A DNA stretch of 40,947 bases from IMG/VR virus record IMGVR_UViG_3300023284_001516, positions 1 through 40,947 of that record. One strand, 5' to 3'. The notes beneath the pieces are model-generated. The model was not told where the DNA came from, did no database searches, and saw only the letters and a program-made list of their open reading frames with translations. The stretch comes from a virus. Shown here in pieces: positions 1 to 13,567 of the stretch. Position numbers and translations under genes: made by a program. The stretch's first letter is position 1, and each line of letters opens with the position of its first letter.

Positions 1-642
1 GTAATCTCGGCCGTACAAGCGGCATTGCCCGATGAGGGTATGACTGTTACAAAGCAACGTTCCGGTATCGGTCAGTTCTCGGTCTTTGTCACAGCAGAGA
101 ACGCTTTCGAAGTGAATGTCGGAGATGATATCTACTTTGGTGTCGCATTTAGATCATCTCTAGATGGAAGTTCACCGACTAAAGCTACACTCTCGTTCTT
201 CCGTCCGACTTGTTCGAATGGGATTTATATCAATGAGATGACTTGGTCATTGCCTCGCCGAGCACTGAAGACAGCAGAAGCGGCAAATCTGGCCATCGGA
301 GAAGGTGCGGCAGAGATATTCAGTATGAGAGAGGCCTATAATGGAAACACTCATGAACTGGCCAAGGCTAATGTCAAGGATCCAGAGGAGACTCTTATGA
401 CTCTGCTCAAGCCACTCGGTCTCTCGCCCGCTCTCTCAGATTACATCTTGGATGCATTTGCTCAAGAACCAGAGTCTACTCTCTGGGGTCTGATGAATGC
501 GCTAACACGAGCGGCCAACGAGGTTCCTACTTTGACGTTAGCGGAACAGCTGTGGACCTCCGCCGGTATTCTGGTTGAGCAGGGTGCAGCCGTCTGCAAG
601 TCTTGCGGTCACGTCCTCTTGAATGGTGAACATAGCCATTGA
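1..642 (+). CDS. DUF932 phage/plasmid-like protein (5' end cut by window)
   Basis: The frame is open from base 1, so the true start probably lies outside the window; the first possible start inside it is TTG at 25. The segment with Ser-Leu-Asp-Gly-Ser-Ser followed by Phe-Phe-Arg-Pro-Thr-Cys-Ser-Asn-Gly resembles the conserved core of DUF932, a family widespread in phages and plasmids whose biochemical role is not settled. The C-terminus ends in a CxxC pair with nearby histidines (CKSCGH...EHSH), possibly a small zinc site. The stop codon overlaps the TTG start of the homing endonuclease downstream. The family call rests on motif recognition only. The position beside recombination genes fits a DNA-metabolism role, which is inference. 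Confidence 0.72.
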   Translation, partial: VISAVQAALPDEGMTVTKQRSGIGQFSVFVTAENAFEVNVGDDIYFGVAFRSSLDGSSPTKATLSFFRPTCSNGIYINEMTWSLPRRALKTAEAANLAIGEGAAEIFSMREAYNGNTHELAKANVKDPEETLMTLLKPLGLSPALSDYILDAFAQEPESTLWGLMNALTRAANEVPTLTLAEQLWTSAGILVEQGAAVCKSCGHVLLNGEHSH

Positions 643-1178
643 TAACCGAAGATCATTCTAGAGCTTGGAAATTAGGAGCCGTCTTGGGCAGGTTCGCCTC
701 GGACGGTTCTTACCATTCTGGGGGAATTCGGTGGTTCTTTGCTGATCATGAGATTGATGTCTTTGATTTTGTGTTTGATGTTTTGTTTAATGAAGGTGTC
801 CGGATTACTGTTCATAATCAGAATGGTCTTATTGTGTTGATGACTAGTGATCATGAATATCGAGAGAATTATGGTAGATGGAAGTTAAAAGAGCAAGTGC
901 CACATCATGTTCGGAAGCATGGCGAGCGCTTGCGAGGATATCTGGCAGGTTTCTTTGACGGAGATGGTGGGTGGGATAATACGGGAGCACCCTATATTAG
1001 TCAAAGTGAAGATCGTCTCGGTCTTATTTATGATATTTCGTTATTATTGAATATGGTGGGTTTGAGTTATTTTCTTTATCATTACCCACCTGCGTTGCGT
1101 TTAAGGGTGCATAAAGAGAGTGTTACACTGTTTCAGCGAGAAGTCGGTTTTCTCTCGATGAGAAAACGTGATCACTAA
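639..1178 (+). CDS. LAGLIDADG homing endonuclease, free-standing, two motifs
   Basis: A 179-residue protein with two LAGLIDADG-type helices. The first is around residues 12-24 (LGAVLGRFASDGS) and the second around 102-110 (LAGFFDGDG), with acidic residues D22 and D107/D109 in the catalytic positions. Two motifs in one chain indicate a monomeric enzyme of this family, which cuts long asymmetric sites and spreads its own gene. No Hint/intein splicing motifs flank it, so I read it as a free-standing gene, not an intein. It starts at a TTG overlapping the DUF932 stop and ends 11 bases inside the Rad50-N gene. Its sequence is visibly richer in A and T than its neighbours, as expected for recent arrival. 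Confidence 0.85.
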   Translation: MITEDHSRAWKLGAVLGRFASDGSYHSGGIRWFFADHEIDVFDFVFDVLFNEGVRITVHNQNGLIVLMTSDHEYRENYGRWKLKEQVPHHVRKHGERLRGYLAGFFDGDGGWDNTGAPYISQSEDRLGLIYDISLLLNMVGLSYFLYHYPPALRLRVHKESVTLFQREVGFLSMRKRDH

Positions 1179-2277
1179 TCTGTCGCTGAAGGATTATCAA
1201 GTATGGTCCGATCTAACTCTCGAGTTAGGCCCCTTCACTTGTATCGTAGGTCCATCGGGCTACGGCAAGTCGTCTATTGTCAGAGCTCTTGAAGCCGTAT
1301 TCACTACTCCGTCTGGTTTAGGTCACGTTAGACACGGTGCGCAGTCTCATACCCTATCCATCGATTTAGACCCCGATATCAGCATCGTCTGGTACAAGTC
1401 AAAGAAGACCAACCACTATCGTATTACGACCGGCGAGGACAGACAGCTCCTCGATAAGGTCGGTCGTAAGGTCCCGGACGAAGTGGCCGAGCTTCTGAAT
1501 CTGCCTTTAGTGGACATCGGCGGAACTGAAGAAGCCCTTTACATATCGCATCAGTTCGATCCGCCTTTCCTTATCTTTGAGTCGCCACAACAAGCGGCCC
1601 GTCTCTTAATGGCCGTGACTGGAGTCGATCGTCTAACAGCAGTACAGAAAGAGGTCGGTTCAGATAGGAGAAAGGTTCAGGTCGAGAAGACGGTAGTAAC
1701 TAAAAGAAGGGAAGAGCTAGAGACCGACGAACGGTTGATGAAACGGGCTCGTGGTTGTCTTCGTTACCAAGAACTCATGCCAGTTATCAATCGTTACAAG
1801 GAATCAGCCAAAAGAGAGGAAGAGCTGACCAAACTTCAAGCTCTTGCACCAGAAATTCCAAGCGAACTCGTAAAATACCCGGGGAACGGTGAAAAATACC
1901 GTGTAGCCTGGGAGGATTATCAACGTCTACCACAGCCAGTCGACGAGCCCGGCGATAAGATCTTTCCGGTAGATACGGGTGATTTTCAGCTGACTCTTTC
2001 TGACCTGAATCGTTTACTACATCTCCAATCCAACCTTGATGCAGTTGATATTACAGCGAGACCATTAGAACGACCCGAGGTCTCGAACTATGACGACATG
2101 TTGGCTAGATGGAACAAACTTCGGGTTCTGCAAGCGGATCTCGATGATACAAATATTAAAGCGGGACTGGCAGAGCAGTACTTGATTACTGTCGAGATGG
2201 AGTACCATGAGACAGTAGAAGGAACTTGTCCTTTATGCGGACAGGAGTGGCCAGATGAAGATTCTGTTCTTCGCTGA
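1168..2277 (+). CDS. Rad50/SbcC-like ATPase, N-terminal half with zinc hook
   Basis: A 369-residue protein that begins like Rad50/SbcC/SMC ATPases. The Walker A motif is at residues 28-35 (GPSGYGKS), a Q-loop-like region lies near 130, and a charged helical segment covers roughly 165-350. It ends with the zinc-hook pair C354-P-L-C357-G-Q only a few residues before the stop. Walker B, the ABC signature and the H-loop are absent here and occur instead in the protein at 6532-7152. The start is GTG, chosen because the first residues (MITNLSLKDYQ) match the usual family beginning; the ribosome site is weak. The end overlaps the SbcD gene by 23 bases. Expected role: ATP-driven partner of the SbcD nuclease in processing DNA ends. 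Confidence 0.82.
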   Translation: MITNLSLKDYQVWSDLTLELGPFTCIVGPSGYGKSSIVRALEAVFTTPSGLGHVRHGAQSHTLSIDLDPDISIVWYKSKKTNHYRITTGEDRQLLDKVGRKVPDEVAELLNLPLVDIGGTEEALYISHQFDPPFLIFESPQQAARLLMAVTGVDRLTAVQKEVGSDRRKVQVEKTVVTKRREELETDERLMKRARGCLRYQELMPVINRYKESAKREEELTKLQALAPEIPSELVKYPGNGEKYRVAWEDYQRLPQPVDEPGDKIFPVDTGDFQLTLSDLNRLLHLQSNLDAVDITARPLERPEVSNYDDMLARWNKLRVLQADLDDTNIKAGLAEQYLITVEMEYHETVEGTCPLCGQEWPDEDSVLR

Positions 2278-3160
2278 CACCCATCTACAGCCGAAAGGCC
2301 CAGCCACTCGAAAGGACGACTATGCTCATGCCATCCTCGGAAAGCTCGAACAGATCTCAGCTCTCGCCTTCACTGAAGGAGTCGACCTTACGATCTGCCT
2401 CGGGGACCTCTTCCATCATAAAGATCCAAGCCGAACTCCTTATTGGCTCCTCAATGAGACCTATAAGATCCTTGAATCTTTTGATCCCCCTGTCAGAATC
2501 GTTCTGGGGAACCATGACTTACAGTCTGCTGGTCCGGCTTCCCTCGATCGGCAACCGATTGGATTACTTATCGAAGCTGGTGTCCTTGACCATGATCAAG
2601 AGCTGACAATTAATGGTCGGGCTGTTACTTTCATCGATCATCAGCCTAAGATTCTGCCCCATCTACGAGAAGTTCACTCTGTTACTGTTTCTGGAGGTGT
2701 ACTTCTGACTCACGCTGATATCACTAACGATGGCCGGTTTGGGACTCTATCCTGGGATGAAGCATCAAAGTGGGGATATGATTGGATAATCTATGGTCAC
2801 ATGCACGAGTTTATCAAGGAGAAGAAGGTTAGAAAGACAATCTTTCTCAGTGCGCCGGCCATGTCACGAGGTGCCATTCCCACCCTAAAGGACCCCAAAC
2901 ATCCGGCGGTGGTGACGGTCGACTTCGACACCGACGAGGTCAAGTTTATTAAACTACAAGCGGCGGCGAAGAAGGATATCTTTGACTATGCTGCCCATGA
3001 AATGAAGAAGAACGCCATGTTTGAGATTGAGACCTTCGTAGCGTCGGCCTCAGATATCCAGCTTAAGTCTGGCTCTATAGCCAATGCTCTGGTTCAGTTG
3101 AAAGGGACACTAGATCCTCCTGTCTACGATTTCATGATGACATACCTTGAGGATATGTAG
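2255..3160 (+). CDS. sbcD: SbcD/Mre11-like DNA exonuclease subunit
   Basis: A 301-residue calcineurin-type metallophosphoesterase. The metal-binding motifs are all visible: D8-T-H10, G50-D51-L-F-H, G85-N-H-D88, H153 in THAD, and G181-H-M-H184. Motif order and spacing fit Mre11/SbcD, which cuts double-stranded ends and hairpins with Mn2+ when bound to Rad50/SbcC. The gene overlaps the end of the Rad50 N-half by 23 bases, implying translational coupling and a shared complex. The C-terminal region after about residue 200 is shorter than in bacterial SbcD. Its TAG stop codon forms the first three bases of the operator palindrome that controls the next gene. Confidence 0.9.
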   Translation: MKILFFADTHLQPKGPATRKDDYAHAILGKLEQISALAFTEGVDLTICLGDLFHHKDPSRTPYWLLNETYKILESFDPPVRIVLGNHDLQSAGPASLDRQPIGLLIEAGVLDHDQELTINGRAVTFIDHQPKILPHLREVHSVTVSGGVLLTHADITNDGRFGTLSWDEASKWGYDWIIYGHMHEFIKEKKVRKTIFLSAPAMSRGAIPTLKDPKHPAVVTVDFDTDEVKFIKLQAAAKKDIFDYAAHEMKKNAMFEIETFVASASDIQLKSGSIANALVQLKGTLDPPVYDFMMTYLEDM

Positions 3161-3202
3161 TACTCGAGTACTATTGTATTCCTTGTTAAAAAGTGGTATA
3201 AT
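3158..3202 (+). promoter_or_regulatory. Sigma70-type promoter with abutting palindromic operator (copy 1)
   Basis: A perfect palindrome TAGTACTCGAGTACTA (3158-3173) is followed without a gap by -35 TTGTAT (3174-3179), a 17-base spacer and -10 TATAAT (3197-3202). The -10 is preceded by TGG, an extended -10. The same arrangement recurs at 14238, 14586, 14954 and 15505. It drives the small gene at 3224. A regulator bound to the palindrome would cover the -35 region, so repression is the likeliest effect; this is inference. Confidence 0.82.
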
Positions 3203-3223
3203 ATAGGTACAAGGAGTAATAAG

Positions 3224-3538
3224 ATGAGAAACCAATTAGAGTACAAGCAACCGGTGAACGGCCGATACGATATAATGTACGGTGATGTCACGGTAGCCTG
3301 GGCACAGAAGACCAAAGACGGCTTTGAGGCCTACATACTTTATACCTCTCCTGCCCAAAGGGTACTGGCAAGGACGATGAAGCGCTTGAAGGAACTGCTT
3401 GAAGTTGATGCCGAAGACATGTTGACTCGGCTCGACGGAATGACGGTAGCCGAGTACATGAAGAAACAGCGTGACTTGGTAGTGAAGGGTAGTCCGCTGA
3501 CTGCGAGCACGAGGGGTAGAGTGGCACCTTGGGGATGA
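3224..3538 (+). CDS. Small paralogous early protein, copy 1
   Basis: A 104-residue protein of unknown function. It starts at ATG with a strong AAGGAG site seven bases upstream. It is paralogous to the proteins at 14307, 14679 and 16567: all share the pattern Y-x-I-x-Y/F, an aliphatic strand, then K/R-T-x-x-G, and most have R-T-M-K further on. It is closest to the 16567 protein, with which it shares YGDVTV, AQKT and an LDGxTxAEYMK segment. The fold looks like a short beta meander followed by a helix. It is transcribed from its own operator-controlled promoter inside the recombination cluster. The stop overlaps the ATG of the Cas4-like gene, so translation of the two is probably coupled. Confidence 0.75.
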   Translation: MRNQLEYKQPVNGRYDIMYGDVTVAWAQKTKDGFEAYILYTSPAQRVLARTMKRLKELLEVDAEDMLTRLDGMTVAEYMKKQRDLVVKGSPLTASTRGRVAPWG

Positions 3539-4356
3539 CGTTAGCTTTGGACGAAGATCTCTACATCAGTTACCACCAGTATTCAACCTATAAGAACTGC
3601 CCAAAGATAATCGACTGGTGGCACACAGCTCCAAAAGAATTAGTCGTAGACGACCACAGAAATGCGGTCGTTGGTTCTGTTGTTCACAACCTAGCCGAGG
3701 CTCATCTCAAGGGTGAGCTCACAGTAGCTCAGATGCACGGCCTGGCTGGTCGGTACTTTCAAGACTTCGAGAAGAATCACTTTATCCGCTGGCGAGGTCG
3801 TAACGATCGATCTCTCTGCCGTTCAAAGGTCGGGCTCCATATTGCGGCACTCGAAAATTTGTTGTTTAGGCACAGCATTACCCCCAAAAACGTTGACTCT
3901 GAGTCTCAGCACAAAGTCGAAGTGGATGTCGATGGCCAGATACTGAAAATAGGAGGCCGGATCGATGTTCGTCGTCGAGAACCCAAGCCCTGGATCTTCG
4001 ACTTTAAAGCTACTGAACGTATCCGCAATGTAGACATCGACCAAATGAGGGTCTATTTCATTATGGACGATGCGCTTGGCAACAGTCCCGAAGGCGGATC
4101 TTTTCTATTGACCCATTTCGAGGATACATTAATAGTTGAGCGTGATTCGAACGCCGAAAGAGAATTGCTGTATAATCTTTTACGAGTAGCTACGCGCATT
4201 CGTGATCGTGATCTACCTTTGACTCCCGGCCGACCTTGTTCTTGGTGTGAATTTGGAACTATCTGCCCAGGTTACAAGAAGTACAAGCGGATGGAAACGA
4301 TCAGGAAACGAGAAGCGGACAACCCCACAACGGGTCGAATCCCTTGGAATAAGTAA
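3535..4356 (+). CDS. Cas4/RecB-like PD-(D/E)XK nuclease with probable Fe-S cluster
   Basis: A 273-residue PD-(D/E)XK nuclease. Visible elements in order are C22 (first cluster ligand), H51 in a GSVVHN helix, D144 in GGRID, the D156-F-K158 core with Thr-Glu following, a QMRVYF helix, and C235-x2-C238-x5-C244. This arrangement of one early cysteine and three late ones matches the 4Fe-4S cluster of Cas4 and AddB-type nucleases. Such enzymes act as exonucleases on DNA ends. No cas1, cas2 or CRISPR array is nearby, so a CRISPR adaptation role is not supported; a recombination role with SbcCD is more likely. I chose ATG 3535, which overlaps the upstream TGA, over an in-frame TTG at 3529. Confidence 0.85.
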   Translation: MTLALDEDLYISYHQYSTYKNCPKIIDWWHTAPKELVVDDHRNAVVGSVVHNLAEAHLKGELTVAQMHGLAGRYFQDFEKNHFIRWRGRNDRSLCRSKVGLHIAALENLLFRHSITPKNVDSESQHKVEVDVDGQILKIGGRIDVRRREPKPWIFDFKATERIRNVDIDQMRVYFIMDDALGNSPEGGSFLLTHFEDTLIVERDSNAERELLYNLLRVATRIRDRDLPLTPGRPCSWCEFGTICPGYKKYKRMETIRKREADNPTTGRIPWNK

Positions 4357-4562
4357 TGTGTTATAAACAACACTTGAAATGGTGGTTTTATACAGTTTTA
4401 GCTGGATCTTTGGGTGTCCTTGTTGTTGAATTCTTGGTGGAAGGGACGAATTTACTTTTGGCTATGTTGTTCGGCGCCTTAGTCGGTGCATTGGTTGGGT
4501 CGATCTTTCACCTCCCCTTTGCGATAGCGGATTATGAGTGGAGGAAGAAGTATGGCAGATGA
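4356..4562 (+). CDS. Small membrane protein, two predicted helices
   Basis: A 68-residue protein with two hydrophobic stretches, around residues 10-29 and 33-56, separated by a short charged turn, and a basic C-terminus. It starts in a TAATG overlap with the nuclease stop. I do not recognise a family. It lies in the replication region, away from the lysis genes, so a holin role is unlikely. Its base composition is richer in T than the flanking genes, which suggests it joined the cluster separately. Confidence 0.65.
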   Translation: MCYKQHLKWWFYTVLAGSLGVLVVEFLVEGTNLLLAMLFGALVGALVGSIFHLPFAIADYEWRKKYGR

Positions 4563-4785
4563 ACGCCTCGAACGAGCCTTAGCACTCAAGTCTAAGATCG
4601 ACGAACATAATGCACAGATAGCGGTCCAAAAAGCACTCTATGATAGGTATGTTACAGAGCTGGCCGAGTTGGGTTTAACCCCCGACACTCTTGCAGCCGA
4701 GATTGATCGACTGACCGAGAAATTAAAAACTCTCGGGAGTGAGTTGGATAAGGAACTAGACGAGATCGAGGAGGTCTTATTGTAA
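4552..4785 (+). CDS. Small coiled-coil protein
   Basis: A 77-residue, highly charged helical protein with leucine-rich heptad-like spacing throughout, broken once by a Gly-Leu-Thr-Pro segment near residue 45. This gives a probable helical hairpin. I chose ATG 4552 because GGAGG lies seven bases upstream; an in-frame ATG at 4534 lacks such a site. It overlaps the membrane protein gene by 11 bases and meets the clamp gene in a TAATG overlap. No family is recognised. Its place directly before the sliding clamp suggests a small accessory or structural partner in DNA metabolism, which is inference only. Confidence 0.65.
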   Translation: MADERLERALALKSKIDEHNAQIAVQKALYDRYVTELAELGLTPDTLAAEIDRLTEKLKTLGSELDKELDEIEEVLL

Positions 4786-6197
4786 TGGCAAGTTCAGACC
4801 AAGAAGCCGAGGCACACGGAGAAAAGGGTCTCGGAGGGCATGTCGGTGAGGCATTAAAAGGGGACGAAGCGGCGGAATGGACCAACCCACCCGACGAGAC
4901 CGAAAAGGAGTTACCTACTGGATCCACTCCAGACGGTACAATACCGGAAGAGAAGACCGAAAAGGTAGAGTCTCGTACCACCGAAGATCCAGAGTACGAG
5001 GCTAAAGACATTACTACTCGTGACTCCACTGAAGAGGAGCCACTCGGTTGGCAAGAAGGCGACACCGAAGGTCTCTCCGATAAGCCACTTGAAGTGGGCA
5101 CCGGAGACATGAAAGTGGTCTTCGACAAGCTCACACTACAGGCCATGGTGACCAAGGTATCAGGAGTCACTGGCACTCCTGCTTCCAACGACATCCTCAA
5201 ACACGTCCTTGTACAAGCTCATTCAGGTGGCGTAGCAATGGTCGGCACAGACATGGAACTCTCGGCTATAGCCCGTTCTGCAGAACCCAAGGTAGAGACC
5301 GAAGGCGTAATCGTTCTCCCTATTAAGATGCTCGGTTCTATCGCCGATCTAGCAGGTGACATAGTCACCATGGACGTAAAGGAGGGCCTGGCAAGGTTCA
5401 TATCTGATGACACAGTCTGGCAACTTAACTCAGTCGCACACGATCTCTTCCCAGAAGTCCCTCGTGCAACCGACAATGCTCGTCCTATATCAACAAGTCA
5501 GCTACTCCGTGCTTTGGAGATCGTCTTCCCTGCTGTCGGTAGAGATGAGTCACGACCCGCTCTCCTTATGGTCCACTTCGACGCTCTCGGAGTCTACGCC
5601 ACCGACGGAGCTCGGGCTCACTTTGCGGCTCTCCCGTCCGACTTCGAGAATCTCCATATCCCTGCACCTGCGGTCCGCCCCCTCATCAACCTCCTCAAGA
5701 ATACTCCGGAGGATTATGTCTATATTGACGAGACTGCGGCTCACATCCTCTTCCTGATAGGACCAGACGAGTTCGCTACACGAATGATGGACGCGCAGTT
5801 TCCTTCGGTTAGAGGGTCAATGATCGATCCAAGACTGAAGACTCACACCGAGGAGCTGGTGTTTAGCAGAGAACGAATGAGGCTAGCTTTGAAACGAGCG
5901 GCGGCAATTTCCGATGACGGCGCCGGATCTGTTACTCTCAAGCTCAACTCTGAGGGTGCTTGCCATATTACGACATCTAATATGAAGGGTAACAGAGTAG
6001 CGACTCTTTTAGAGATCGACTACAAAGGACAACCTAGATCGGTGACCTATCTGATTCCTTCTATATTGGACCTGATGAACTCATTTACGGATGAAATGTT
6101 GACTGTGAAGCTATCTCCAAGCGCTTCTGAAGGGGTGCTTCTAGCTCACTCTGAAGAAGCAACGGTAGTAATTCTACCAAGAGTGCGTGCCTCATGA
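4785..6197 (+). CDS. dnaN: DNA polymerase III beta sliding clamp with acidic N-terminal extension
   Basis: A 470-residue protein whose residues from M109 onward are a beta clamp. MKVVFDKLTL resembles the usual clamp start; GTDMELSA, LFPEVP and YATDGARAH match the conserved clamp segments, and the third domain has the FATRMMDAQFPSVRG segment. The clamp part, about 362 residues, is of normal family size. Residues 1-108 are extra: rich in Glu, Asp, Thr and Pro, low in hydrophobics and probably disordered. The start at 4785 has GAGGAGG ten bases upstream, and the extension is coding in composition. The clamp is a ring that tethers polymerase and repair enzymes to DNA; the phage also encodes its loader (12500). 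Confidence 0.92.
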   Translation: MASSDQEAEAHGEKGLGGHVGEALKGDEAAEWTNPPDETEKELPTGSTPDGTIPEEKTEKVESRTTEDPEYEAKDITTRDSTEEEPLGWQEGDTEGLSDKPLEVGTGDMKVVFDKLTLQAMVTKVSGVTGTPASNDILKHVLVQAHSGGVAMVGTDMELSAIARSAEPKVETEGVIVLPIKMLGSIADLAGDIVTMDVKEGLARFISDDTVWQLNSVAHDLFPEVPRATDNARPISTSQLLRALEIVFPAVGRDESRPALLMVHFDALGVYATDGARAHFAALPSDFENLHIPAPAVRPLINLLKNTPEDYVYIDETAAHILFLIGPDEFATRMMDAQFPSVRGSMIDPRLKTHTEELVFSRERMRLALKRAAAISDDGAGSVTLKLNSEGACHITTSNMKGNRVATLLEIDYKGQPRSVTYLIPSILDLMNSFTDEMLTVKLSPSASEGVLLAHSEEATVVILPRVRAS

Positions 6198-6535
6198 GAC
6201 GGTGTGCATTATTTGAATGTCATGAGCCAGTTTATGGGTCTCGACAGATTTACTGTTGCGGGAGTCATAAGGTTAGGGCTCATGAGCGTCGATCAGGTAG
6301 AAGTGTGAATAATTCAGTCGAAGCTCAATTGAAGGCGCGAGCCCGGAAGTTAGCCTGGGATGCAGTTCAACGGGGTCAGATAGTAAAAGCAACTCATTGC
6401 AGTAATTGTGGTAACTCCGAAGAATTTGCCGAAGATGGACGTTCTCTTTTGGAGGCCCATCATCAAGATTACTCTCAACCATTTGATGTGACCTGGCTTT
6501 GTTGGCAGTGTCATGCGGAACCAGTTTTTGCATGA
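6194..6535 (+). CDS. HNH-type zinc protein, putative endonuclease
   Basis: A 113-residue protein with two cysteine-rich parts. The N-terminal part (residues 4-35) has C-x4-C and a later CC-x-S-H-K segment resembling a small zinc finger. The C-terminal part has a CSNCG pair, then EAHHQDY, then WLCWQCH; this is the layout of phage HNH proteins in which the His pair is catalytic and the four cysteines hold a structural zinc. It starts in an ATGA overlap with the clamp gene and ends in an ATGA overlap with the Rad50 C-half. Its codon use is more A+T-rich than that of its neighbours. It could be a homing-type nicking enzyme or a repair nuclease. Confidence 0.72.
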   Translation: MRRCALFECHEPVYGSRQIYCCGSHKVRAHERRSGRSVNNSVEAQLKARARKLAWDAVQRGQIVKATHCSNCGNSEEFAEDGRSLLEAHHQDYSQPFDVTWLCWQCHAEPVFA

Positions 6536-7152
6536 TTGATCGCATTGACGTAGTCGAGAAGCTTTATAATGTACGATTAGCGGAGGTTAAGCAGAGAAAG
6601 ACCGATCTGATAGACCTTCGTGTACAGGAAGAGCAACTTGCATCAAAGGATCTTGATCTTAAAAAGGTTGAAGCGGCTATTGCTACTTTGACCAACATGG
6701 TCTATGGCGAGTCAGTTCAGTCTTTAGCGGAGGTACTCAACTATGGCATCCGTTCCGCCTATCCTCGAGAAGTCACTGCAGTGGTCGAGAAGGCTATCGC
6801 CTCAGGCCGCCCTACTCTTAGTATCGGCCTTATGGACGGCGGCAGTGATCCTATTGATCCTGAGTCGGCGCATGGTGGGGGTCTCGCGCAGATCCTCGGA
6901 TTTCTGGCGAGGGTCATCATCATTCTCGCCACTGGAAAACGGCGACTTCTTATCCTCGACGAGACCTTCTCGGCCGTATCCGGAGACTTACTCCCAGACC
7001 TCTCTGCCCTCATCAGAGCTATCGTAGAACAACTTGACTTTCAAGTGGTTCTGGTCACCCACAAACCAGAGTTAGGAGACGCGGCACAGAGACTTTACCA
7101 ACTACAAGCACCAGGAACACTAATAGAAGTTGAAACATCTTACTCGCTTTAG
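6532..7152 (+). CDS. Rad50/SbcC-like ATPase, C-terminal half
   Basis: A 206-residue protein with the half of an ABC-type ATPase that is missing from the product of 1168-2277. Residues 1-60 are a charged helix, probably the end of a coiled-coil arm. A glycine-rich signature-like segment follows at G115-G-G-L118, then Walker B RRLLILDET with D143-E144, a D-loop region, and an H-loop at H177 (VTHKPEL). There is no Walker A. With the N-half it would rebuild one Rad50-type head. The arms differ in length (about 190 residues in the N-half, 60 here). The start at ATG 6532 overlaps the HNH stop; an upstream in-frame TTG lies inside the HNH gene and is unlikely. Confidence 0.82.
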   Translation: MIDRIDVVEKLYNVRLAEVKQRKTDLIDLRVQEEQLASKDLDLKKVEAAIATLTNMVYGESVQSLAEVLNYGIRSAYPREVTAVVEKAIASGRPTLSIGLMDGGSDPIDPESAHGGGLAQILGFLARVIIILATGKRRLLILDETFSAVSGDLLPDLSALIRAIVEQLDFQVVLVTHKPELGDAAQRLYQLQAPGTLIEVETSYSL

Positions 7153-7184: not shown

Positions 7185-10181
7185 ATGACTCTAGATTTCA
7201 CAACCCGTACCGAGATCCATGTACCACCCGAAATAGCATCGACCAAGGTCAAAGGCGTTGGACGCCTCATGTCCGAAGTAGAAGATATCGATGCTTGGCT
7301 CGATAAGAATCTTGTCTTCATGGACCATCCCGAGATCTATGCCTCACATGGCGACGAGATGAATACGGTCCATCGAGATTGGGATACGTCACCTTTCAAG
7401 ATCTGTCTTGTTGGTGGTATGGCTTACCGGAACTCAGTCGGTAATCTGGCAATCCCTTTGCTCTACTCAGAACTAATAGAGACAGCCCCGAAGGATTGGG
7501 TTGTAGATAGAGCGCACTTTTGGGAGACCCGCAAGAACTTTAAGATGACAACAAGAGACGGTGTACCTGTCGTAGGGCTACAGTCGCATCGCCCGCTCGA
7601 CCAGTTCGATGCCCTACTCTTCTCTTGCTCGTATCTCCAGACCACACTCCATATTGGCATGATGTTGAAGTGGTCCGGCATTGCTCCTCGAGCAGATGAA
7701 CGTTCCAATGATGACCCTTATGTGGTCGGTGGTGGTCACCATATGTACGTCAACTCGGACCCTATCTCTCATATTCCGGATATAATCTGGGTTGGTGAGT
7801 TCTCGGCTGGCGGAGTTGAAGCCATTGAAGATATCGCAAAGGCTCGTATCGAAGGTCGTGATAAGTGGGAGTTCATTGAGGAACGGGCGAAGGAAGGACG
7901 ACGAGGGTTCTATGTCCCCTCCTTTTATACCCAGACTTACTCGAAGCACGAACCCTATCCGATAGCAGACTACTACTCTCATGTCGAGGGTGTACCCTTC
8001 CCTGTTAAGAAGGCGTACTCCTCTAACTTGGACCAGGAAGCACACATCAATAAGAGACCAATCGTTTCACTTCTCAATCCAGGCATGGGAACGGCAGAGA
8101 TACAGTCTAGCTTCGGCTGTGATACTGCCACATGCACCTTCTGCTCGGAAGGTCAGACCAACAAACCTTTCCGTTTCTACTCAGTCGACACCATAGTTGA
8201 GGCGGCAAAAGAACAAATGAAGTACAGCGGAATGAGATCGTTTACTCTTTCCGCTTTTGATGGTGCCGGACATCCACTAAAGCGACGTCTGCTACGTCGA
8301 CTCCTCGAGGAGGTGTCAGATGAAGTTACGCTACTATCGCTCAGAGTGGACGAGATGGCAGATGATGACATATTTTCTGTTGTATCTACCACGGCAGGGA
8401 ATAAGACTCTATCGCTTGGTGTGGAGGGTATGTCGGAACGTATGCGTGCGGTCTATCAGAAGTGGTGCAACCAAGGTCAGATACTTAAGGTATCGGAAGA
8501 TGCGATAGCCTCGGGTGCAACCAAGCTGAAGTACTTCATGATCGCCAACCACCCTTGGGAGACCGAAGAGGATCGCATGGAATGGGTCCATACCTTGAAG
8601 GATATCGAGGCACTGAAAGAGAAGTACGGTTCGAAGTGTCAGATCCTGACGTCCTGGACTCCACTTGTGATTATGCCGTTCACCTCACTCCAATGGGAGG
8701 CACCGACACCAGATGACAGAACTCTCCATGGGATCATCAAAGCCATCAAAGATGAAACTGGTACAGACTTTCGTATCGGCTCTGGTGGGCGAAGAGACGA
8801 AGCATATATGGCTCAGCTCATGCAATTGGGAGATCGACGGCTTTCGCATCTTATTGACTGGTGCATCGACAACGACTTCCTCCACTATGGTTCAACGCCT
8901 AAGGGTATGGTGGAAACCATTGAGGACATCCTCAATGAGGTACCACAGGCTGATGGAACTCCTTACGAAGCACCATTAGGATTTCATACTTGGTTTCGTC
9001 CGAAGGCGTACTCTGAACCTCTGCCTTGGGACGCTTGGGATGTGGGCGTCACTAAAGAGTGGCTCATCATGGTCAACGAGATATCCAAGCTCGGACATCA
9101 GCAAGTTCAAACCTGCGTAACCTCATGCTCAGCATGTGGTGCATGTTCAGACCTGGACCGAGTGAAGATGGCGGCAGGACACGCAATGCCAGATGACGAC
9201 TTCGAGATCCATGAGATCAATGTTATCAAGCAACGTGGATCCACCCAGGTCTTGCGTCTCAAGTTGAAGATCGATCGTGACCATCGGTTTATCGGCGACG
9301 AATACTGGCATGCAGGCCTCGTACGTTCGGCCCGTCTTGCTGATCTACCAGTCGACAAGGGCAAGATAGCAATGGTGAGTCAACGTTACAAGTTCTTCGA
9401 TTATGCCTACGGTATCGAGTATGCAGATGTGGGTATGATGGAACGTATTACTCTGAAGCAGGCACGCACAATGGCAGAGTTTATGCCAGCTGGAATGGAG
9501 CTAGTCGATGTACGAGCCTTCTCACCCAACGTCGGTTTACTACGTAACGTGGCAGGAGCTGTGCACTACATCTGCGACGTTCGGCCCGTCTACTCGACAA
9601 GAGCAACGAAGGAAGCTCTCGAGAGAATGCTCGGAGCTGAAGAGTTCATTGCCACCGTCAAGAAGAAGATATATCGTAAAGGCATGGTCTCAGTTGATGT
9701 CGACGTACGCCCGTGGGTGTTGGATGGATGGGTACAGCCGAATGGTCTACTCCACCTCCTCTTGAAGGGTACAGCCAACCCGTACGAACTCCTACCAGCC
9801 ATGTACGGTGTGTCTCGACGAAAGATTCTACCTCTGGATGTGGTACGTGCAGAGATCTATCTCGACGAGAAGGACGAAGGACAAGTGGATGCATTTCGAC
9901 CAGTCTGCCCCAAGACCGGAGTTAAGGTTGAAGCTAATATGTACGATGAGGTGCATGAGTCTGGGCTAGCAGTCAAAGCACGTTACAACCGACTGAACCT
10001 CGACGTCACCAATGTCGGACAGATCCAAATCCAGAACATATCAGAACAAGAATTAGCGGAAGACTCAGAACTTGTGAAGTCATCCGACCTGTTTGATGAG
10101 ATGATGGCAGAGGAGCTGGCCCTGGTCCCACAGACCTTGGGAACGCATCCCGAGCCAGTAACAATCTCAGGTGGTGATTAG
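7185..10181 (+). CDS. Large B12-binding-like / radical SAM / DUF2344-like fusion enzyme
   Basis: A 998-residue protein, the largest in the window. Residues about 65-240 resemble the cobalamin-binding-like N-domain of the radical SAM family described as TIGR03960 (the LVGG, LQSHRPLDQFDALLFS and VVGGGHH segments fit that pattern). The radical SAM site follows at C312-x4-C317-x2-C320, one residue longer than the usual CX3CX2C. A second cysteine set, C644-x3-C648-x2-C651-x2-C654, could hold another Fe-S cluster. Residues about 675-900 resemble the DUF2344/TIGR03936 domain fused in the same family. The substrate is unknown; nucleic acid modification is possible but unproven. The start has GGAG six bases upstream. 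Confidence 0.85.
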   Translation: MTLDFTTRTEIHVPPEIASTKVKGVGRLMSEVEDIDAWLDKNLVFMDHPEIYASHGDEMNTVHRDWDTSPFKICLVGGMAYRNSVGNLAIPLLYSELIETAPKDWVVDRAHFWETRKNFKMTTRDGVPVVGLQSHRPLDQFDALLFSCSYLQTTLHIGMMLKWSGIAPRADERSNDDPYVVGGGHHMYVNSDPISHIPDIIWVGEFSAGGVEAIEDIAKARIEGRDKWEFIEERAKEGRRGFYVPSFYTQTYSKHEPYPIADYYSHVEGVPFPVKKAYSSNLDQEAHINKRPIVSLLNPGMGTAEIQSSFGCDTATCTFCSEGQTNKPFRFYSVDTIVEAAKEQMKYSGMRSFTLSAFDGAGHPLKRRLLRRLLEEVSDEVTLLSLRVDEMADDDIFSVVSTTAGNKTLSLGVEGMSERMRAVYQKWCNQGQILKVSEDAIASGATKLKYFMIANHPWETEEDRMEWVHTLKDIEALKEKYGSKCQILTSWTPLVIMPFTSLQWEAPTPDDRTLHGIIKAIKDETGTDFRIGSGGRRDEAYMAQLMQLGDRRLSHLIDWCIDNDFLHYGSTPKGMVETIEDILNEVPQADGTPYEAPLGFHTWFRPKAYSEPLPWDAWDVGVTKEWLIMVNEISKLGHQQVQTCVTSCSACGACSDLDRVKMAAGHAMPDDDFEIHEINVIKQRGSTQVLRLKLKIDRDHRFIGDEYWHAGLVRSARLADLPVDKGKIAMVSQRYKFFDYAYGIEYADVGMMERITLKQARTMAEFMPAGMELVDVRAFSPNVGLLRNVAGAVHYICDVRPVYSTRATKEALERMLGAEEFIATVKKKIYRKGMVSVDVDVRPWVLDGWVQPNGLLHLLLKGTANPYELLPAMYGVSRRKILPLDVVRAEIYLDEKDEGQVDAFRPVCPKTGVKVEANMYDEVHESGLAVKARYNRLNLDVTNVGQIQIQNISEQELAEDSELVKSSDLFDEMMAEELALVPQTLGTHPEPVTISGGD

Positions 10182-10700: not shown

Positions 10701-10904
10701 GTGGAATTAACAGCTGAGCGTAAGAAGCACATTGACTCGCTTAGTGTCGAGGAGCTTCTCAGACACAACAGGTTTGCTCCTGCTGGTGATCGCTGGTTTC
10801 AAGGCGACACGGGTGACTATTGGCTTGAGCGGTTGTTCAAGCTAAGGTCAGAAGACAACGCTGCTTATGTAAGGGCTTCCAAGAATATAGGTTGGAGCGG
10901 ATGA
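10701..10904 (+). CDS. Small conserved phage protein
   Basis: A 67-residue soluble protein. The segment ERKKHIDSLSVEELL followed by RFAPAGDRWFQGDTG and DYW resembles a small family I recognise from many environmental tailed phages, without a known function. The start is GTG with GAGGG nine bases upstream. The end overlaps the endonuclease IV gene in an ATGA junction, so the two are likely translated together. Confidence 0.72.
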   Translation: MELTAERKKHIDSLSVEELLRHNRFAPAGDRWFQGDTGDYWLERLFKLRSEDNAAYVRASKNIGWSG

Positions 10905-11695
10905 AGATTGGTCTCCATATCTCGACTCAGGGTGACCCAATCAAGGCACTTCGGGCCTTTGAGATGGCCGGTGGACAAGCGGCACAGATCTTCTCGGGTA
11001 ACCCTCGAAGGTTTATGCCGAGTAAGAAGGCTGGATACTACGACGGCGACATGTCCATTGTTGTTCATTCATCATATGTGATCAACCTGGGTTTGATAGA
11101 GAACCATTCGAAGGCTCTGCCAGGTGCTGTTGACCAGTTCAAATGGGCACAGGAGATTGGGGCTGACTGGTACGTACTCCATGCCGGCTCCACTAAGAAT
11201 GTTCCGCATTCTCACGGTCTATATTCATGGAGGAAAGCAATCGATGAGCTCCTTGCGCACAAAATTGGTGGTACTCGACTGGCGATCGAGAACATGGCTC
11301 AGGGACGTCCGTTTCCTACTGCGGGTTCTCTGGGCAATCTTGAAACGGTCGCGCACTTGGTTCAGGGTTACTCCTCAGATGACGTTTCCATCTGTCTTGA
11401 TACAGCTCACGCCTGGGGAGCAGGAGAGAATCTCCGAGCTCTTGCAGAACTTGGCTCTAACCGCTGGATACGACTCTTCCACGCTAACATCCCGAATGCT
11501 GGAATCGCTTACGGTTCAAGACTTGATCGACATGATCAACACATTCAAGAAGGAGCATTCCCTGTAGGTCTCTTGGTAGACATTATGCAATCAATACAAC
11601 CGGAAGTAGCGATTCTTGAATCCATGGTCCATACCGTACAAGATTGCCAGTACCTGTATGATCTAGTAATGCATTCGAACGGGAATGTGAAATGA
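10901..11695 (+). CDS. nfo: Endonuclease IV (AP endonuclease)
   Basis: A 264-residue TIM-barrel protein with the zinc ligands of endonuclease IV in order: H6 in GLHIS, the VHSSY and LHAGS strands, the Glu in AIENMAQG, DTAHAWGAG, the FHAN strand, the SRLDRHDQHI segment and a terminal Glu in ILESM. Endonuclease IV cuts DNA 5' of abasic sites and acts on oxidised bases using a three-metal centre. Length is close to the bacterial family. ATG 10901 overlaps the upstream TGA. The phage may use it to repair its own genome or to incise modified bases; an active link to the radical SAM enzyme is speculation. Confidence 0.92.
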   Translation: MKIGLHISTQGDPIKALRAFEMAGGQAAQIFSGNPRRFMPSKKAGYYDGDMSIVVHSSYVINLGLIENHSKALPGAVDQFKWAQEIGADWYVLHAGSTKNVPHSHGLYSWRKAIDELLAHKIGGTRLAIENMAQGRPFPTAGSLGNLETVAHLVQGYSSDDVSICLDTAHAWGAGENLRALAELGSNRWIRLFHANIPNAGIAYGSRLDRHDQHIQEGAFPVGLLVDIMQSIQPEVAILESMVHTVQDCQYLYDLVMHSNGNVK

Positions 11696-12221: not shown

Positions 12222-12503
12222 ATGAGCGAATTAGAGAAGATTAAAGCATTAGGCATGGCTTTGGGTTCCAACTCCTCTGAAAAGTGGGGCGGGAAACCTC
12301 CAATGGCGACTTGTCCTAACTGTGGTGAACCGCTCATTGCTACCTTTCATTTCCCAGGATATGAGTTCATTTGTGCTTCTTGTAAGCGGATGTGGGGGTT
12401 TGTGGATCCCGTGCCAGTAGAGTCGACGCCAGAGCTAGAAGCTCGTCACAGTGAACTTAAAGCTCAATGGATTGCTGAACTTGAGGACCAGAAGACAGAA
12501 TGA
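12222..12503 (+). CDS. Zinc-ribbon small phage protein
   Basis: A 93-residue protein with CPNCGEPLIATF and, 21 residues on, CASCKRMWGF, forming a clear four-cysteine zinc ribbon. The C-terminal third is a charged helix. Proteins with this ribbon and the Gly-Phe after it are common in tailed phages and have no assigned role; binding to nucleic acid or to RNA polymerase is possible. I chose ATG 12222 with AGG seven bases upstream; an in-frame TTG at 12198 gives eight more residues. It ends in an ATGA overlap with dnaX. Confidence 0.75.
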   Translation: MSELEKIKALGMALGSNSSEKWGGKPPMATCPNCGEPLIATFHFPGYEFICASCKRMWGFVDPVPVESTPELEARHSELKAQWIAELEDQKTE

Positions 12504-13567
12504 CGCTCGCTCTCGATTATAGACCTGTCATCTGGGACGATCTCGTTGGACAAGAGGTCAACACAAAGATAATAACCTCGATGCTGAGGCGGAAGCAACA
12601 ACATCCCTTCTTCATATTTTCCGGACCACGAGGAGTCGGCAAGACAACAGCGGCACGAATACTGGCGAAGTCACTAAACTGCACAGGAGATCAAAATGGA
12701 TCTGTCAATCCGTGTAACAAATGTGAAGCGTGTTTATCTATCGATACCGACTCGTGTCCGGATGTCGTTGAACTCGACGCGGCATCACATGGCGGTGTTC
12801 AATCTGTCCGGCGGATCCGCGAACTCAGCCTTTATCGGCCTATCCAGGTCCGTCAAAGAGTTATCATTCTGGACGAGGCTCATGCTATGTCTCGGGAGGC
12901 CTTTCAAGCGCTCTTAAAGATCCTCGAAGAGCCACCCTCCTACATGACATTCGTGATGGCAACGACTGAGGTCCATGCCATACCCGATACCATCATCAGC
13001 CGAGCCTTCCCATTCGAGTTCAGACGGATCTCGGCCAACGACATCTTTCGCCGGATAGACATGATAGCGAAGAAAGAGTCACTGGGTCTTACGGAAGGCG
13101 CTCTGCGGTTGATAAGTCTCCATGTGTCCGGCGGACTTCGAGACGCAATCACCCTGATGGAACAGGTAAGCACTCTCGAAGACAACGTCGACGAAGATAC
13201 AGTAGTCAGAGTTCTCGGACTTTTGGTCCGCTCGGAAATAGCAAAGTTCTTCGACTCACTCATAAACAAGCAACGCGCAAAGGTGTTCATGTGGACAAAG
13301 GAAATGACAGATCGAGGTATCGAGGCGAAAGTAGTCCTATCCGCATTGCTCGGCTACGCCCGAGATTTAATGAGCGTCTCAGTTGGTTTCCGTGGAGACC
13401 TCAACGACACGGACTACGCCAAAGCGACGGCCCAGTCAAAGATACTGGGACAAGAGCGATTACTCTCCATCGCGAACGACTTGATGGATCTGGAAGCACG
13501 ATCGACCAACTCGCCGGTGCCCGTCTCGATCTTAATAGAATTATCTCTCTCAAAGATGGTGATCTGA
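12500..13567 (+). CDS. dnaX: DNA polymerase III clamp loader subunit, DnaX-like
   Basis: A 355-residue AAA+ protein. Walker A is at residues 42-49 (GPRGVGKT), the DnaX zinc module at C61, C72, C75 and C78, and Walker B at D125-E-A-H128. The ISRA segment corresponds to the SRC motif, with Ala in place of Cys but the arginine finger kept. A collar domain fills the C-terminus. The length matches the short gamma form; the tau-specific polymerase-binding part is missing. It opens the sliding clamp (4785) and places it on primed DNA. No delta or delta' subunit is in the window, so it may assemble alone, with host subunits, or with the product of 13582. Confidence 0.93.
   Translation: MTLALDYRPVIWDDLVGQEVNTKIITSMLRRKQQHPFFIFSGPRGVGKTTAARILAKSLNCTGDQNGSVNPCNKCEACLSIDTDSCPDVVELDAASHGGVQSVRRIRELSLYRPIQVRQRVIILDEAHAMSREAFQALLKILEEPPSYMTFVMATTEVHAIPDTIISRAFPFEFRRISANDIFRRIDMIAKKESLGLTEGALRLISLHVSGGLRDAITLMEQVSTLEDNVDEDTVVRVLGLLVRSEIAKFFDSLINKQRAKVFMWTKEMTDRGIEAKVVLSALLGYARDLMSVSVGFRGDLNDTDYAKATAQSKILGQERLLSIANDLMDLEARSTNSPVPVSILIELSLSKMVI

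Follow-up and report, generated by a model that had tools for sequence, protein, structure and literature searches.

In the Mre11-Rad50 family, two ATPase heads close on ATP and drive the associated nuclease. The DNA break repair proteins Rad50 and SbcC are treated as single chains in which the pair of arms and the hook have a central part in DNA tethering. Conserved enzymes can also occur in pieces: in Aeromonas phage Aeh1, the enzyme encoded by nrdA is reportedly made as two chains, with homing endonuclease genes nearby. Here, we describe a Rad50/SbcC-type ATPase encoded in two separate genes of the virus record IMGVR_UViG_3300023284_001516, a linear fragment from IMG/VR that was analyzed over its full 40,947 bases (hereafter, the window). 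Like single-chain Rad50, SbcC, and gp46, which accompany Mre11, SbcD, and gp47, this locus holds an N-lobe with Walker A, an arm, a CxxC hook, a C-lobe with Walker B and H-loop, and an adjoining SbcD; it differs in being two genes broken at the hook, in its unequal arms, in an extra gene (here called M), in a GGG signature, and in its separate grouping in trees. Taken together, gene content, alignments, and structure models lead us to read the two genes, with a probability of about 0.87, as an ancient, stably inherited split form of Rad50/SbcC that would act as a composite enzyme with SbcD, with M as a probable third subunit.

Motifs of the two putative halves

The first gene (N-half) encodes an N-lobe with Walker A, whose G28, G33, and K34 are invariant in an alignment of N-halves (A14), and with a Q-loop-like glutamine (positions in Table 1). 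Its chain stops 12 residues past a CPLC zinc-hook motif, the cysteine pair of which is invariant in 42 aligned N-halves; the CxxC is conserved but located at the chain end. The second gene (C-half) is without Walker A and supplies a C-lobe with signature, Walker B, D-loop, and H-loop, the signature being GGG in place of the SGGE-like form, a change that may tune ATP turnover. The C-half profile has its best match in Rad50 (2.9e-17 to 3qkr_B), and the protein also matches the C terminus of PHROG 77 (SbcC-like); it would have 217 residues if started at the in-frame TTG at 6499 instead of the ATG at 6532. Pfam assigns the N-half only general AAA_23/AAA_15 domains, and neither half reached the cut-off of any NCBIfam model.

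Leave-one-out profiles, built without the window, matched the N-half at 4.4e-37, M at 4.6e-7, the C-half at 1.2e-24, and SbcD at 4.1e-40, each as the sole match among 248 window open reading frames (ORFs); because they pick exactly these ORFs, the identification is not due to chance. M had been overlooked in an earlier note on this DNA, made from the sequence alone, and is also matched by a profile built solely from chromosomal copies (1.1e-7). Direct reading and profile matches bore out the coordinates and motifs that the note had given for both halves, and Pfam and PHROG agree with its placement of SbcD, a Cas4-like nuclease, and a sliding clamp between them. The note had named a complete single-chain Rad50/SbcC in the rest of the genome, using neither half, as evidence that would count against it; the 41-kb record, a linear fragment, gave a single AAA_23 match and no further SbcC-type N-lobe. 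The likelihood that the arrangement reflects a decayed gene, a frameshift, or an assembly artifact in the window is virtually nil: the sole point in its favor is that the usual gene is single-chain, whereas seven ORFs separate the halves, the motifs are all intact, and the same arrangement occurs in isolates and in finished plasmids and phages.

Distribution and ancestry of the split

The search for other phages with the same split that the note had suggested led to diverse phages, to plasmids, and to chromosomes of Bacillota. A search of 50,697 phage records gave an identical set of five records for N-half and C-half (four phages, one of them entered twice), and the C-half is a separate gene in every one of them. 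Phages carrying the split include Bacillus phage vB_BboS-125, in which the halves are gp32 and gp35, Microbacterium phage Magritte, Tunturi_5, and the uncultured 485-kb phage LR745208. Scans of the viral collection with the window N-half alone or with an alignment of the window and Magritte N-halves returned no relative, and a scan with the window C-half returned one; alignments that took in all six phages proved too diverse for scanning. With two N-halves (from vB_BboS-125 and locus L002), the IMG/VR scan yielded 59 loci, and loci were scored with profiles that we built for N, M, C, and SbcD.

Both N and C are held by 55 loci, a set that pools viral and chromosomal loci and includes closely related contigs (L011-L025). 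The N-half stops 4-26 residues (median, 10) past a CxxC in 53 of these, and M is present in all 55. Both exceptions look like broken genes: L073 has an N-half without a hook and a C-half match of only 144 residues, and the N-half of L063 lies in two ORFs, the second ending CPLCGRE. A gene for the presumed partner, an Mre11/SbcD-type nuclease, is near in nearly all complete loci and is fused to N in three, the association being one of genetic linkage only. Separate genes encode the two lobes in the window and in all relatives except genome G052, where SbcD, N-lobe, and C-lobe form one 700-residue chain that has lost the arms and hook.

The plain cassette is also held by a 70.5-kb Bacillus velezensis plasmid and by Microcystis phage Mvi-JY20, where its genes are labeled “AAA family ATPase,” “ParA,” or “hypothetical.” In Paenibacillus polymyxa plasmid pSC2 and an Aneurinibacillus plasmid, SbcD is fused to the N-half and separate M and C genes follow; the fused chains, of 841 and 937 residues, end just past the hook (L117, 2076-4601; L120, 2519-5332). 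Compared by that paper's description, they fit the SbcD-SbcC fusions of Anaerostipes and Bacillus phage 0305phi8-36, in which a Mimivirus paper left one SbcC P-loop segment unobserved (PMC3175470). That paper reports fusions and not the split, and the split form possibly explains why these fusions, reported in 2011, were without one P-loop half.

A first scan of bacterial genomes gave no match; a second gave chromosomal loci, with the cassette in Halonatronum, Halanaerobacter, Orenia, Natroniella, Frackibacter, Caloramator, and one Eubacteriales metagenome-assembled genome, and with a copy of the vB_BboS-125 type in a Sutcliffiella genome. The gene order in Halonatronum, Halanaerobacter, and Orenia is recA-recX-sbcD-N-M-C-rny, with cinA, recA, and recX (identified by sequence reading) flanking the cassette and an RNase Y-type gene after C. 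The chromosomal N, M, and C genes adjoin or overlap one another without any insertion. Across 199 genomes sampled evenly from the phylum Bacillota, matches to the C-half profile were bimodal: 34 genomes had matches at E <1e-37, in frames of 155-282 residues save one fusion, and below these there were only weak matches in SMC- or RecN-sized frames. Twenty chromosomal loci were fetched (18 complete, one at a contig end, and one fusion), and SbcD, an N ending at the hook, M, and C are present in all 18 complete loci.

Full-length SbcC, marked by TIGR00618 at E <1e-20, was present in 78 of the 199 genomes and was nearly exclusive with the split form, occurring in 1 of the 34 split carriers versus 77 of the 165 others (Fisher p 1.9e-7, an optimistic value because kinship among the genomes is uncorrected). 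This suggests that the split form replaces SbcC in its carriers, and it accounts for the apparent absence of SbcC from some Halanaerobiales and other Bacillota. PF13558 was dropped as a marker since it also matches unrelated proteins of ~1,100-1,500 residues; two such matches (L102 and L111) have starts unlike SbcC. In the sole sampled split carrier with full-length SbcC (locus L098, genome G105), SbcD is situated beyond the C-half.

Trees were built with 12 unsplit SbcC/gp46 sequences as comparison; these are quick, unrooted trees in which several rows are long branches, the window C-half most of all. Sixty-five split N-lobes fall on one side of a branch (support, 100), as do 53 split C-lobes (support, 98). 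Each half set is thus a single group apart from unsplit SbcC/gp46, which shows common ancestry at the level of sequence. The window N-half groups with those of Magritte, LR745208, and Tunturi_5 (support, 96) and its C-half with those of the same three phages (support, 87), indicating that the halves travelled together.

Literature searches covering open papers, with subscription journals outside the search, found no description of a split SbcC or Rad50, and the genome papers of vB_BboS-125 and Tunturi_5 make no mention of SbcC; the form is apparently undescribed in the open literature. In the PHROG database, the two halves of this system correspond to families 16465 (“exonuclease,” 491 positions) and 15167 (“ATPase,” 211 positions), which are neither linked to each other nor called SbcC. 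The split form would supply a likely function for phage families filed under these names and for genes labeled “hypothetical” or “ParA.” A Rad50 naturally cut at the hook is a ready-made system for probing the purposes served by an unbroken chain, by symmetric arms, and by the hook.

Predicted head, arm, and third subunit

The note had proposed that two chains could still build one head, and very probably they do so, together with SbcD: a both-lobe model of a relative, the fusion of SbcD with both lobes, and two-chain heads in the PDB all point this way. In Halanaerobacter, the N and C genes share a frame, and reading through the intervening stretch gives a linked N-to-C chain. Two alignments of this chain (A13 and A15), in which N-arm rows aligned into the C coil, were discarded in favor of A16; the alignment input consisted of N-lobe and C-half rows. 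AlphaFold predicted both lobes with a predicted local distance difference test (pLDDT) score of at least ~90, and the alignment of the model with Rad50 heads spans both lobes (template modeling scores of 0.70 to 3qku_A and 0.73 to 3qkt_B), the N- and C-lobes of this relative being predicted to form one ATP-binding cassette (ABC) head. Two-chain assembly is physically possible, since N and C are distinct chains in the solved Rad50 heads 1f2t, 1f2u, 1ii8, 1us8, and 3qkr.

The halves might instead belong to two separate complexes, the N-half being, for example, a lone hook-bearing ATP-binding protein and the C-half an accessory factor. Such an arrangement would suit the distance between the halves in Magritte (~93 kb in the record) and in Tunturi_5 (~107 kb, on opposite strands), as well as a C-half without the canonical signature serine. 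It is nonetheless improbable, given that neither half has a complete ATP site, that M accompanies every one of the 55 cassettes, that SbcD, N-lobe, and C-lobe occur as a natural fusion, and that a joint head is predicted.

For a composite enzyme, we propose that the N-half would contribute the N-lobe (Walker A and Q-loop), a long helical arm, and a C-terminal hook, and the C-half a short coil and the C-lobe (signature, Walker B, and H-loop), one chain of each folding into one ABC head. Two heads and two SbcD would then make up an Mre11-Rad50-type nuclease acting on DNA ends, on breaks, or on replication intermediates; its heads, like those of Mre11-Rad50, would close on ATP and drive the SbcD subunits, and the terminal CxxC hook could still pair two N-halves. 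From these parts we infer that a complex forms in vivo, that it has ATPase and nuclease activity, that hooks pair, and that M has the role discussed below.

The AlphaFold model of the window N-half (42 sequences; mean pLDDT, 77.8) has a confident lobe, mostly at pLDDT 76-96, and its closest PDB chain is Pyrococcus furiosus Rad50. Its arm is predicted as a helix at 153-234, weak middle helices, and a helix at 303-349, followed by the hook, and the C terminus of the N-half has a weak profile match to the solved Rad50 hook chain 6zff (E 0.001). A head may form while the N-half arm folds on itself, with M and the hook serving another purpose (e.g., docking to replication proteins) and no hook tethering. 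We regard this as unlikely: it would explain the inequality of the arms (~200-350 residues in N and ~60 in C), the division of the predicted N arm into several helices, and the loss of the hook from the Magritte N-half and from the G052 fusion, and it is opposed by the invariant cysteine pair and by the match to 6zff.

M is a small coiled-coil protein and, judging by its conservation, a probable third subunit. Among 4,737 ORFs of 45-140 residues, its profile had no match far from a C-half, so M is specific to this setting; Pfam matches of M to myosin, tropomyosin, and similar proteins were dismissed as coiled-coil noise. In a composite enzyme, M would probably form part of the missing return arm, which would consist of M plus the C-half coil, or would clamp that coil onto the N-half arm; for its role within the complex, we consider the odds to be about even. 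The chromosomal order N-M-C is the order of the parts in one SbcC chain, which matches a return arm containing M. More tentatively, and with the balance tilted toward doubt, we suggest a three-chain Rad50 (N, M, and C) with a detachable return arm, M and the C coil binding the hook-terminated arm reversibly so as to open the ring or rod or to alter arm length. If true, this would be a working mode that is not known for single-chain Rad50, and the three-chain form would be the housekeeping one in part of the Bacillota, shared with their phages.

Several observations weigh against a composite enzyme or against parts of it. The signature is GGG where SbcC and SMC proteins carry an SGGE-like form. 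The Magritte N-half is without CxxC, and in Magritte and Tunturi_5, with their widely separated halves, M was not found in the stretches read; hook and M may thus be dispensable, and these points, with the unequal arms, call for caution about a return arm. Three viral contigs (L051, L059, and L064) hold an N-half for which no C-half was found in the record; L051 ends close to the N-half, L059 is short (20.3 kb), and L064 spans 82.5 kb. The head model is that of a relative and not of the window N plus C, and its linker is a read-through artifact. The N-halves at 9998-11131 of L064 and 8044-9177 of L059 end at a hook.

Endonuclease genes and other neighbors

The note had attributed the split to homing endonucleases, as in Aeh1 nrdA, and the LAGLIDADG gene directly before the N-half and the HNH gene directly before the C-half are indeed present (Pfam LAGLIDADG_3 and PHROG 2340); in vB_BboS-125, N and M are separated by an AP2-domain gene. 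A recent split in this phage lineage by insertion of such a gene is nonetheless highly improbable: the break is at the hook in 53 of the 55 loci, the chromosomal genes abut or overlap with nothing between them, N and C each form a single tree group, and LR745208 has the order SbcD-Cas4-like-M-clamp-C as in the window, its clamp gene directly adjoining the C-half without an intervening HNH gene. The claim that the two genes are halves of one Rad50/SbcC broken at the hook holds, and the claim that the LAGLIDADG and HNH genes made the split is not supported, the same break existing without inserts in phages and chromosomes; nor is there the pattern expected of such an origin, in which the split would coincide with the endonuclease gene and unsplit close relatives would exist. 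Unlike in Aeh1 nrdA, the split here is ancestral and independent of endonucleases, and from the gene arrangements the LAGLIDADG and HNH genes are best seen as visitors or neighbors of the region. A role of an endonuclease in the first, ancestral split is possible.

In LR745208, an HNH gene lies between N and SbcD. The annotated relatives that were examined show no LAGLIDADG ORF next to their split genes (by annotation only; the viral loci were not all scanned). The window HNH ORF ends CHAEPVFA, and its match to PHROG 2340 stops 13 positions before the profile end; the usual last histidine is maybe missing, and the gene may be a decayed endonuclease.

Table 1. Features of the split Rad50/SbcC locus (window coordinates, except for the last row)
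Feature	Position	Strand	Evidence or remark
LAGLIDADG-type ORF	639-1178	+	Pfam LAGLIDADG_3 2.3e-5; neighbor outside the system
SbcC/Rad50 N-half, 369 residues, GTG start	1168-2277	+	Pfam AAA_23 2.5e-8; PHROG 16465 6.9e-30
Walker A, GPSGYGKS, N-half residues 28-35	1249-1272	+	direct reading
Q-loop-like Q129 of N-half	1552-1554	+	invariant in alignments A12 and A14
Zinc-hook motif C354-P-L-C357	2227-2238	+	direct reading
SbcD/Mre11-type phosphoesterase	2255-3160	+	Pfam Metallophos 3.9e-12; PHROG 100 SbcD-like
104-residue ORF	3224-3538	+	
PD-(D/E)XK (Cas4/RecB-like) nuclease	3529-4356	+	Pfam PDDEXK_1 1.7e-12
68-residue ORF	4356-4562	+	
M, small coiled-coil protein, 83 residues	4534-4785	+	leave-one-out profile 4.6e-7
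Sliding clamp	4785-6197	+	Pfam DNA_pol3_beta domains; PHROG 947 2.5e-36
HNH-type endonuclease	6194-6535	+	PHROG 2340 5.4e-15; neighbor outside the system
SbcC/Rad50 C-half, ~60-residue coil plus C-lobe, 206 residues	6532-7152	+	PHROG 15167 3.5e-10
Signature-like GGG, C-half residues 115-117	6874-6882	+	alignment A10, direct reading
Walker B LILDE, C-half residues 140-144	6949-6963	+	alignment A10, direct reading
H-loop H177 of C-half (VTH, 175-177)	7060-7062	+	alignment A10, direct reading
G052 fusion (locus L079 coordinates)	4152-6254	-	armless Mre11-Rad50 in one chain

The genes of the window form a compact plus-strand run from 639 to 7152, in which the start of the SbcD gene overlaps the end of the N-half gene and the C-half ATG overlaps the HNH gene stop. 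The Cas4-like nuclease gene is placed between SbcD and M in LR745208 too, as in the window. BLASTP of the window and LR745208 clamps gave no match, but both match PHROG 947; the window clamp has a ~108-residue acidic, low-complexity N-terminal extension (4785-5110) ahead of the clamp domains. Directly after the C-half lies a gene for a 998-residue radical-SAM protein (7185-10181) with an N-terminal Radical_SAM_N2 and a DUF2344-like part, for which no PHROG family match was obtained. Farther along, a 267-residue protein (10892-11695) resembles AP endonuclease IV by sequence reading only, with no PHROG match, and downstream of its gene is a clamp loader gene (12500-13567; PHROG 5846).

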